DNA of 64,000 nucleotides. It comes from Oleiharenicola lentus (lineage in GTDB: Bacteria > Verrucomicrobiota > Verrucomicrobiia > Opitutales > Opitutaceae). The stretch lies in assembly GCF_004118375.1 (NCBI RefSeq), contig NZ_SDHX01000001.1, positions 1,429,693-1,493,692 of the forward strand, read 5' to 3'. The notes beneath the pieces are model-generated. The model was not told the origin of the DNA. It did no database searches and saw only the letters and a program-made list of their open reading frames with translations. How positions within the stretch are numbered: the stretch's first letter is position 1; every line of letters begins with the position of its first letter. A program made the translations under genes and the position numbers. Of this stretch, positions 43,045 to 45,001 are shown one piece after another.

Positions 43045-43073
43045 TTGACAGCGTTTGTGCCGATACGCACGTT
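43045..43073 (+). promoter_or_regulatory. Candidate promoter of the ilv operon
   Basis: A perfect -35 box TTGACA (43045-43050) lies 40 bases before the leader ORF. At 17-base spacing the -10 is CACGTT (43068-43073), a poor match, so only the -35 side is convincing. Confidence 0.45.
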
Positions 43074-43090
43074 CACCGCTCAATTCTGAA

Positions 43091-43192
43091 ATGTTCAGCG
43101 TCGTCGCCATTGCCCTTATTACCGTCGTCCTGGCCCTTGTTGCCGTGGACACAAATTCTACTGGGCGGCTCGCCGAAGTCTCAAACTCCTAA
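43091..43192 (+). CDS. ilvL: ilv operon leader peptide, Val/Ile/Leu-rich
   Basis: A 33-codon ORF, too short for normal ORF calling. It encodes MFSVVAIALITVVLALVAVD followed by TNSTGRLAEVSNS. Residues 4-19 hold 11 Val, Ile or Leu in 16 positions, exactly the end products of the genes that follow. Stalling of the ribosome on these codons when branched-chain aminoacyl-tRNAs are scarce would leave 43162-43170 free to form an antiterminator. The stop codon is 23 bases before a Rho-independent terminator. Function is inferred from this classic arrangement (compare ilvL/ilvG of enteric bacteria). No strong ribosome binding site is seen. Confidence 0.85.
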   Translation: MFSVVAIALITVVLALVAVDTNSTGRLAEVSNS

Positions 43193-43243
43193 AAGAGAAA
43201 ACAGAAAAAAGATGAAGCCGCCCACGAAAAGGGCGGCTTTTTT
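43162..43243 (+). promoter_or_regulatory. Transcription attenuator of the ilv operon (antiterminator / terminator switch)
   Basis: The terminator is a 9-bp stem (AAGCCGCCC 43215-43223 with GGGCGGCTT 43231-43239), a 7-base loop and a run of six T (43238-43243). The 3' arm sequence GGGCGGCT also occurs inside the leader ORF at 43163-43170. So TGGGCGGCT (43162-43170) can pair instead with AGCCGCCCA (43216-43224) over 9 bp and block the terminator. The Val/Ile/Leu codons end at 43147, about 15 bases before the switch strand. A stalled ribosome leaves the strand free, and a ribosome at the stop codon covers or passes it. Confidence 0.85.
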
Positions 43244-43330
43244 ATTCTCCAGCCCTTATGACGCAGACCCTTAAAACCCCATCCTCGCCCTGCCGGAAAT
43301 GTTCCGGTAGCGTGGAATGACCATTTCCCT

Positions 43331-45001
43331 ATGGATTCCGGCAAACGCCACAGCCACGTAGTCACCGAAGGTCCGAACCGGGCGCCCGCCCGCGCCATGA
43401 TGAAGGCGGTCGGTTTTACCGATGAGGATCTGAGCAAACCGCTCATCGGCATCGCCAATACCTGGACCGAGATCGGGCCCTGCAATTTCCACCTTCGGTC
43501 CCTGGCCGAGCATGTAAAAGCCGGCATCCGTGCCGCCGGTGGCACACCGCTGGAGTTCAACACCGTTTCCATCTCCGATGGCATCACGATGGGCACCGAG
43601 GGCATGAAGACCTCGCTCATCAGCCGTGAGCTGATCGCCGACTCCATCGAACTCGTCGCGCGCGGCAACAGCCTCGACGGCCTCGTCTGTCTTTCCTCCT
43701 GCGACAAGACCAATCCCGGCGTCATGATGGCGCTCGCGCGTTGCGACATTCCCGGACTCGCCCTTTACGGCGGCTCGATTGATCACGGCCACCACAACGG
43801 CAAGGCCCTGACCGTGCAGGACGTGTTCGAGGCCGTCGGTGCGTTCAGCGCGGGCAAAATCGACGCGAAGGAATTCAAGTGCGTCGAGAACGCCGCCTGC
43901 CCGACCGCCGGCGCCTGCGGCGGCCAGTTCACCGCCAACACCATGGCGACGATCATGGAGGCCATCGGCATCTCGCCCGTCGGCCTCAACGGTATCCCGG
44001 CCACGGCCGAGGAGAAAAACAAGGCCGCCTACCGCTGCGGCGAGCTTGTCATGGAGCTCGTGCGCAAGGACCTTAAGCCCTCGCAGATCATGACGCGACC
44101 GGCGTTCGAGAACGCCATCGCGTCGGTTGCGGCTTCCGGCGGCTCGACCAACGCCGTGCTGCACCTGCTCGGTCTCGCCAAGGAAGCCGGTGTGAAACTC
44201 ACCATCGACGAGTTCGACGCCATCTGCGCGAAGACCCCGACCATCGCCACGCTCAAGCCCGGCGGTCTCTACACCGCCGTCGAGATGCACAAGGCCGGCG
44301 GCATCTCGCTGCTTCTGCGCCGTCTCTTCGAGGGCGGTTACCTCAAGGGTGATTGCATCACCGTCACCGGGCAAACGCTCGGCGAGGCCGTGAGGAACGC
44401 TCCCGAGACCCCGGGCCAGCAGGTCATCCGCCCGACCGACAAGGCCTTCAAACCCACCGGTGGCCTCGTCATCCTCCGCGGCAATCTCGCCGAAGAGGGC
44501 TGCGTGCTCAAGGTCGCCGGCAGCTCGCGCGAAAAGATCACGGGCCCGGCCCGCGTTTTCGAGAACGAGGAATCCGCCATGGCCGCCGCCAACGCCCAGC
44601 AGATCAAGGCCGGCGACGTGGTTGTCATCCGCTACGAGGGGCCCAAGGGCGGTCCCGGCATGCGCGAGATGCTTGGCGTGACCGCCGCGCTGGCGGGGCA
44701 GGGGCTGGCCGACTCGGTCGCGCTGCTCACCGACGGACGTTTCTCCGGCGCGACGCGCGGCTTTTCCATCGGCCACGTGGCGCCTGAGGCGTTCGTGGGC
44801 GGTCTCATCGCCTTCGTGAAGGAGGGCGACACCATAGAAATCGATGTGCCTGCGCGCAAACTGCAGGTCGCCATCGCCCCCGATGAACTCGCCCGCCGCA
44901 AGGCCGGCTGGAAGGCCCCGGCTCCGCGCTACGCACGCGGCGTCATGGCCAAATACGCCAACACCGTTTCGTCGGCCTCCGTCGGCGCCGTCACCTCCTA
45001 A
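43331..45001 (+). CDS. ilvD: Dihydroxy-acid dehydratase
   Basis: A 556-residue Fe-S enzyme that dehydrates dihydroxy-isovalerate and dihydroxy-methylvalerate in valine, leucine and isoleucine synthesis. The cluster cysteines are Cys51 (GPCNFH), Cys124 (SSCDKTNPG) and Cys196 ([12 protein letters not shown]). The C-terminal [25 protein letters not shown] block is present. Length is normal. It is the first structural gene after the attenuator, 87 bases downstream of the T tract. A short hairpin (43293-43307) lies in between. Confidence 0.97.

Follow-up and report, generated by a model that had tools for sequence, protein, structure and literature searches.

A putative ribosome-mediated attenuator upstream of ilvDBNC in Oleiharenicola lentus and related leaders in the Opitutaceae

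Results

The ilvD locus and its relatives

The window, by which we mean the whole 64,000-nucleotide stretch of Oleiharenicola lentus DNA that was analysed (contig NZ_SDHX01000001.1), carries on its forward strand ilvD for dihydroxy-acid dehydratase (43331-45001; TIGR00110, 696 bits against a cut-off of 618), followed by ilvB and ilvN for the large (45038-46894; TIGR00118) and small (46907-47470; TIGR00119) subunits of acetolactate synthase and by ilvC for ketol-acid reductoisomerase (47519-48529; TIGR00465). According to NCBIfam, the gene order on the 3' side of the leader described here is ilvD, ilvB, ilvN, ilvC, leuA and cimA, which bears out the ilvD-ilvB-ilvN-ilvC order given in an earlier note on this DNA, and an attenuated ilvDBNC operon may extend to leuA-cimA. 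On the 5' side lie a thrA-like gene for a bifunctional aspartokinase/homoserine dehydrogenase (40428-42974, same direction) and a metX-like gene.

The region between the thrA-like gene and ilvD contains TTGACA (43045-43050), a -35-like element that would belong to the promoter of the leader transcript. TTGAC is kept in the relatives and stands 39-50 nt 5' of the leader ATG in all 27 loci compared below; a recognisable -10 for TTGACA at 43045 was not established, and the promoter scan of the window did not report the element. GTCATAA is found about 20-30 nt 5' of TTGAC in 16 of the 27 ilv leaders (e.g. L004) and is absent in the window; this conserved sequence is a possible promoter or regulator element. 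Shine-Dalgarno-like sites are present in 2 of 35 window ORFs, taken with naive starts.

The nearest relatives of the window's ilvD come from MAGs named Lacunisphaera, Oleiharenicola, Didemnitutus, Opitutaceae or just Verrucomicrobia. Among the best 80 of 149 loci, IlvD identity is 81-91% for the 19 best relatives and 68% or less beyond them. When 150 genomes of the family were searched for IlvD, 120 had a match, and 14 of these (genera g1, g28 and g40; own genome included) had the window-type IlvD at an identity of at least 80%. Upstream DNA was taken from 12 of the 13 non-own window-type genomes (G116 was left out) and from 28 loci of the other type. As 5 of the 12 were already among the nearest-relative loci, the comparative set consists of 27 loci, 18 window-like (group A) and 9 Didemnitutus-like (group B), which represent 27 distinct leader-to-ilvD stretches and 26 distinct sequences of the leader ORF.

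The IlvD of genera g1, g28 and g40 is about 46-51% identical to the best IlvD matches of other Opitutaceae. Its nearest outside relatives are found in the Thermoflexales (Chloroflexi; 66-68%), followed by Acidobacteria and others. This divergence may reflect either a replacement by transfer or an old paralogue.

A leader ORF rich in Val, Ile and Leu codons

The leader ORF, uORF1 (43091-43192), encodes a peptide of 33 residues, MFSVVAIALITVVLALVAVDTNSTGRLAEVSNS, followed by a stop codon. Eleven of the 16 codons from V4 to V19 (43100-43147) specify Val, Ile or Leu, in agreement with the count in the earlier note. Given that V, I and L make up 23% of the codons in 35 long window ORFs with naive starts, the binomial chance of at least 11 such codons in 16 is 1.3e-4 at the codon usage of the window; the same count is reached by 34 of the 95,929 stop-free 16-codon segments in the six frames. 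What decides the matter against chance is the comparison with relatives.

The reading frame of uORF1 is under coding constraint. Among group A, the synonymous share of the differences in uORF1 is 0.41, compared with 0.29 ± 0.05 in column shuffles, of which 2 of 200 were as high. The Ile codon of the leader is AUU in 40 of 48 cases in group A and 27 of 31 in group B (counts that are not independent because the loci are related), whereas AUU accounts for 16% of the Ile codons in the window ORFs. The preference for AUU is an unusual codon choice in the sensor.

An antiterminator strand that competes for the terminator

Downstream of uORF1 lies an intrinsic terminator with a T-run (43214-43243). 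The Rho-independent terminator that the earlier note had described was recovered by our scan at 43214-43240 plus the T-run. Its 5' arm contains strand 3, AGCCGCCCA (43216-43224), which is common to the terminator and to the antiterminator and whose pairing is near-invariant. Strand 2, TGGGCGGCT (43162-43170), lies inside uORF1 and is the exact complement of strand 3 over 9 bp, precisely as had been proposed. The distances come out slightly shorter than the 23 bases from stop to stem and the 15 bases from codons to strand that were first given: the gap between the leader stop and the terminator stem is 21-22 nt, and that between the last Val codon of the run and strand 2 is 14 nt.

Such complementarity is hardly ever reached in shuffled sequences of group A. 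An exact 8-nt complement to the 5' arm of the terminator, as present in the window leader, occurred in none of 200 dinucleotide shuffles; the other 17 leaders of group A gave 0 to 6 of 200. The complement in group B is 7 nt long in 7 of 9 leaders (10 to 21 of 200 shuffles) and 5 nt in L008 (100 of 200 shuffles); for L090 the script picked the wrong hairpin, and GGGCGGC was found there separately. The succession GGGCGG...GCCGCCC...GGGCGG occurs once in the 4.7-Mb genome of O. lentus, at the ilv leader, and the backwards control pattern does not occur in it. As a family-wide marker, the bare trio pattern was rejected as unspecific, since 98 of 150 genomes contain it and the controls turned up in comparable numbers.

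The conservation of strand 2 goes beyond that of the peptide. Its codons GGG CGG CTC are identical in all 18 group A loci, though all three could vary synonymously, and 8 of 9 group B loci retain GGG CGG; neighbouring codons vary while the synonymous positions of strand 2 stay invariant. In the 17 distinct group A sequences, 8 of the 9 pairs of the 2:3 helix never vary. We looked for covariation in the 2:3 and 3:4 helices among the relatives and saw none, because both hardly vary.

All 19 nearest relatives (L002-L020) have the leader, and in total all 27 loci compared that carry this type of ilvD have a V/I/L-rich leader ORF with a terminator, the terminator having been found by script in 26 and by eye in L090. 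An antiterminator strand of at least GGGCGG is kept in 26 of 27 loci and is shortened to GGGCG in L008. The earlier note had named the loss of both the ORF and the alternative stems in related genomes as evidence against its reading; these counts instead support attenuation of ilv.

Strand 1 and the folding of the switch

RNAalifold, applied to 15 sequences, pairs the Thr-Val-Val-Leu-Ala codons with GGCGG and places a hairpin between them. In the window, this strand 1 region (43122-43150) consists of CCGTC (43122-43126), which pairs with strand 2, and of an enclosed hairpin (43127-43134 with 43142-43150). Across the 18 group A sequences (17 distinct), 96.6% of the cells of the 1:2 helix are paired, compared with 29-47% when the partners are slid by 1-3 columns, and 3 pairs have changed on both sides (5 cells), a score that none of 500 shuffles reached. 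The covariation that the earlier note had suggested looking for in both stems is therefore seen in the 1:2 helix only. The comparison supports 1:2 as a conserved helix in group A. In the minimum-energy fold of the window's own leader, the partner of strand 2 is instead the V5-A6 codons (43103-43108). A special energy of 1:2 was considered and rejected: on average, strand 2 of group A is sequestered by upstream codons with a probability of 0.91, no better than the 0.88 of synonymous shuffles.

In the equilibrium fold before strand 4 is made, and with no ribosome present, the 2:3 helix has a probability of at least 0.80 in 25 of 27 loci. Since 2:3 wins under these conditions, a leader without a translating ribosome would let transcription continue unless 1:2 forms a kinetic barrier, so that the putative protective role of 1:2 would have to be kinetic. 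We modelled a stalled ribosome by folding on its own the RNA 3' of a ribosome at each V/I/L codon, the ribosome being assumed to occupy 15 nt on the 5' side and 12 nt on the 3' side of the A-site codon. In this model 25 of 27 loci reach a mean 2:3 probability of at least 0.97, and the other two, L008 and L090, one of 0.85-0.86. Once the ribosome has reached the stop codon, strand 2 of group A is not itself covered by the assumed footprint and is re-paired upstream with a probability of 0.60-1.00 (at least 0.95 in 12 of 18 loci). The footprint in group B covers strand 2 wholly in L008 and about 4 of its 7 nt in 8 of the 9 loci.

A second mini-ORF between the terminator and ilvD

All 27 loci have a further ORF between the terminator and ilvD. 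In the window, this uORF2 (43258-43320) encodes 20 residues and ends 10 nt before ilvD, and its start and stop positions are kept in nearly all relatives. The stop lies 10-12 nt 5' of ilvD in 16 of 18 group A loci, the exceptions being L084, where uORF2 runs into the ilvD start, and L012, which has an in-frame stop at -32; among the 9 group B loci it always overlaps the ilvD start. The start codon is ATG, or TTG in L011 and L090, and the sole indel within uORF2 in group A is one of 9 nt. uORF2 has no V/I/L run, and as a conserved peptide it was rejected, with a synonymous share in group A of 0.283 against 0.284 in shuffles. That position and frame are kept without conservation of the peptide suggests a hand-over of ribosomes, and the sequence fits the prediction that uORF2 works by reinitiation.

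uORF2 also contains a possible hairpin (CTGCCG/CGGTAG, 43290-43310), considered as a candidate second switch, with 84% of cells paired. The pairs that have changed on both sides all belong to one clade (L009, L013 and L020), and slid controls score alike.

Distribution of the ilv leader

The family also carries the other type of ilvD, about 46-51% identical. A leader plus terminator was seen in 0 of its 28 upstream regions by a scan that is not fully sensitive, having missed the terminator in 2 of 12 loci of the leader-bearing type (L087 and L090); ORFs with 8 of 16 V/I/L codons are present in 3 of the 28 regions and terminators in 0. Outside the Opitutaceae, a scan confined to ORFs found 8-11 V/I/L codons in 16 at 16 of 61 ilvD loci (L021-L081). 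Two acidobacterial loci among these, L025 and L030, have short ORFs containing RISLLT within 200 nt before ilvD, which on their sequence are possible leaders.

On the 5' side, the end motif of the thrA-like gene was found before the leader in 16 of 27 loci. It was not found in the other 11 (L002, L014 and all 9 of group B), where 1500 nt were scanned in 6 loci and about 500 nt in 5, which argues against the leader merely accompanying that gene.

Of 113 class genomes, 103 have ilvB, and 40 of their loci were scanned upstream of this gene. An ORF with a terminator is present in 2 of the 40 (L227 and L243) and an ORF alone in 3 more, with 0 of 40 in the reversed control, so that V/I/L leaders with a terminator before ilvB are rare elsewhere in the class. 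L227 and L243 belong to other families of the class, and their Val-rich ORFs have similar C-terminal ends and like terminators.

Aromatic and histidine leaders in the same genome

Searches with a covariance model (R1) built on the ilv leader gave 36 matches at E ≤ 0.01 in the 150 family genomes and 34 in 286 class genomes; many weak matches are plain terminators. Twenty of the R1 regions outside ilvD leaders were read and comprise 7 Phe/Tyr leaders, 1 V/I/L leader (L157), 3 others (L162-L164) and 9 without an evident switch. The Phe/Tyr leaders (L152-L156, L160 and L161) precede DAHP synthase, called by Pfam DAHP_synth_1 in the one that was scanned and by likeness of the first residues in the rest. 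O. lentus itself has a Phe/Tyr leader, MNRFAANFSFTFAGYFTPQNHGGLSRRNV, with a terminator before DAHP synthase (L202; G000:C2, upstream of 806409-807449, minus strand).

In all 8 aromatic leaders read (the 7 and that of O. lentus), F and Y replace V, I and L, and GGCGGC is conserved as two Gly codons, GGC GGC; TTGAC stands 37-38 nt upstream. The antiterminator sequence is thus read in a different frame from that of the ilv leader (Gly-Gly versus Gly-Arg-Leu), which argues for conservation of the RNA and not of the peptide.

A third leader of O. lentus, MNLHHHHHHV, has a run of six His codons, is accompanied by a strong terminator and precedes hisG (L204; G000:C1, upstream of 170526-171086, minus strand). 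The hisG leaders of G037 and G071 read MVLNHHHHHVS and MVSNHHHHHVS. hisG is present in 105 of 113 class genomes; in 40 loci chosen from these, the scan found a leader in 2, both of the same genus as O. lentus, and 0 of 40 in the reversed control. A His leader is present in these 3 genomes of the genus, and none was seen by scan in the other 38 hisG regions. Each of the three leaders of O. lentus (ilv, aro and his) has sensor residues that correspond to what the downstream pathway makes.

The V/I/L leader of L157 (genus g10, 669-823), MNFVVVSLILGLVLVIIGTHDQLDGKEVRVTR, is followed by a terminator and then, by Pfam, by the gene of an ilvB-like TPP enzyme; TTGACA stands at a similar distance. In L162, L163 and L164 (genus g40, about 600-800), a conserved leader containing LTPWY...SKAI and a terminator precede a protein of about 107 residues, which had no Pfam match in L162. 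A branched-chain leader before leuA in the window was rejected, as the ORF at 48550-48723 has no V/I/L run. No leader was seen before trpE of O. lentus, which closely follows another ORF.

Discussion

The leader of ilvDBNC is very probably a ribosome-mediated (leader-peptide) transcription attenuator, a familiar type of switch in a family that has been little studied. This was the reading of the earlier note, whose statement that all parts of the switch are visible was nearly right: it had missed strand 1, the second mini-ORF and the other leaders of the genome.

We infer a mechanism in which RNA polymerase would start just 5' of the leader and a ribosome would translate uORF1. When Val-, Ile- or Leu-tRNA is short, the ribosome would stall on codons 4-19 and hinder strand 1, so that strand 2 (43162-43170) could engage strand 3 (43216-43224) ahead of the synthesis of strand 4; the terminator would not form and the operon would be read. 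When the tRNAs are charged, the ribosome would run to the stop of uORF1. In group A, to which the window belongs, the upstream codons behind the ribosome could then take back strand 2, and in the Didemnitutus-type group B strand 2 would lie partly or wholly beneath the terminating ribosome. Strand 3 would in either group pair with strand 4, and transcription would end at about 43243. Transcripts that read through would reach uORF2, whose stop 10 nt before ilvD probably passes ribosomes on by reinitiation.

Could uORF1 instead encode a small membrane protein with one hydrophobic helix, the terminator just setting its level relative to ilvD? Its peptide is hydrophobic and under coding constraint, and the aromatic leaders are hydrophobic too. 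This reading is nevertheless very improbable in our view, since it accounts neither for the frozen synonymous positions of strand 2 nor for the aromatic leaders, which read the same RNA strand in another frame; moreover, the leader with six His codons in the same genome is not hydrophobic, and in each of the three leaders the residues fit the product of the pathway that follows. The position of the hairpin downstream of the thrA-like gene, in the same direction, and the gene-end motif 5' of the leader in 16 of 27 loci would also agree with a mere terminator of that gene, the ORF being incidental. We give this hardly any credence, as the gene and the hairpin are separated by the conserved TTGAC element, the leader frame and strand 2, and 11 of 27 loci have the leader without the gene-end motif in the scanned upstream DNA.

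It is also conceivable that the ribosome controls ilvD without the 1:2/2:3/3:4 switch, e.g. by Rho-dependent termination or by translational control via uORF2. The conserved frame of uORF2, with its stop next to ilvD, and the preference of equilibrium folding for 2:3 even without a ribosome would be consistent with such control, but an intrinsic terminator in 27 of 27 loci and a competitor strand in 26 of 27 speak against it, as do the lack of a V/I/L run and of peptide conservation in uORF2. We therefore regard such control as very unlikely and retain transcription attenuation by the leader peptide as the preferred reading.

How the ilv and aromatic leaders came to share their antiterminator sequence can be addressed more tentatively. 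It is possible, though we would not rely on it, that one Opitutaceae cassette (GGGCGGC / GCCGCCC / GGGCGGC) spread from operon to operon by copying and acquired new sensor codons (V/I/L before ilvD, F/Y before DAHP synthase), and that the ilv copy was joined to a reinitiating mini-ORF, so that one leader would control both transcription and translation. The cassette common to the ilv and aro leaders makes the spread of attenuators by copying and recoding testable. If true, a copied cassette would mean that attenuators evolve by sensor swapping outside the classical phyla.

Three leaders (ilv, aro and his) in one genome make the coupling of biosynthetic control to translation look habitual in this lineage, which has few Shine-Dalgarno-like sites. 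Textbook amino-acid attenuation is hereby placed in a phylum for which our search of the open-access literature found no description of leader-peptide attenuation; an earlier description is possible. This agrees with the earlier note, which knew of none in the lineage. Verrucomicrobia, Opitutus and Akkermansia are absent from the main text of a terminator survey (PMC2965389). No Rfam leader family matched the window leader or six relative loci at its gathering score, Phe_leader (RF01859) and Thr_leader (RF00506) reaching 20.7 and 18.2 bits against a gathering cut-off of 55. The ilvB-II, ilvB-OMG and Leptospira ilvB motifs were not among the 5 Rfam matches at E ≤ 1, and Rfam 15 may not hold them.

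These three motifs offer a close comparison. The available text of PMC10272879 describes uORFs rich in branched-chain codons before ilvB-II, ilvB-OMG and Leptospira ilvB, and proposes that uORF attenuation is common for ilvB. The likeness to our leader lies in the uORF before acetolactate synthase genes; the difference is that the motifs precede ilvB, whereas the window leader precedes ilvD as the first gene. Neither Verrucomicrobi nor Opitut occurs in the main text of that paper. The actinobacterial ilvB leaders in the available text of PMC1262725 likewise have V/I/L runs and a terminator before ilvB operons, but they lack other attenuator parts and have their codons within reach of the terminator sequence, which they overlap, whereas strands 1 to 4 are separate in the window. 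A similar-looking streptomycete ilvB leader is described in the same text as insensitive to changes in its regulatory codons and would, by analogy, count against the attenuator reading here. For uORF2, the available text of PMC4833913 proposes that leader genes near a gene start hand over ribosomes, with a peak at 10-11 bp from stop to start. Like uORF2, these are short ORFs whose stop lies about 10-12 nt before a gene start; they form a general statistical class there, while uORF2 follows an attenuator. Verrucomicrobia are not named in the main text of that paper.

The classical leaders of this kind are the enterobacterial ilv attenuators, i.e. ilvL of ilvGMEDA and the ilvB leader. They likewise have a V/I/L-rich leader ORF, a choice between antiterminator and terminator, and an ilv operon downstream. 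They differ from the present leader in belonging to another phylum, and here a mini-ORF of conserved frame follows the terminator; ilvX of E. coli is comparable to uORF2 in position only. The mechanism is that of the textbook, and what seems new is the lineage, the reuse of the cassette and the second ORF.
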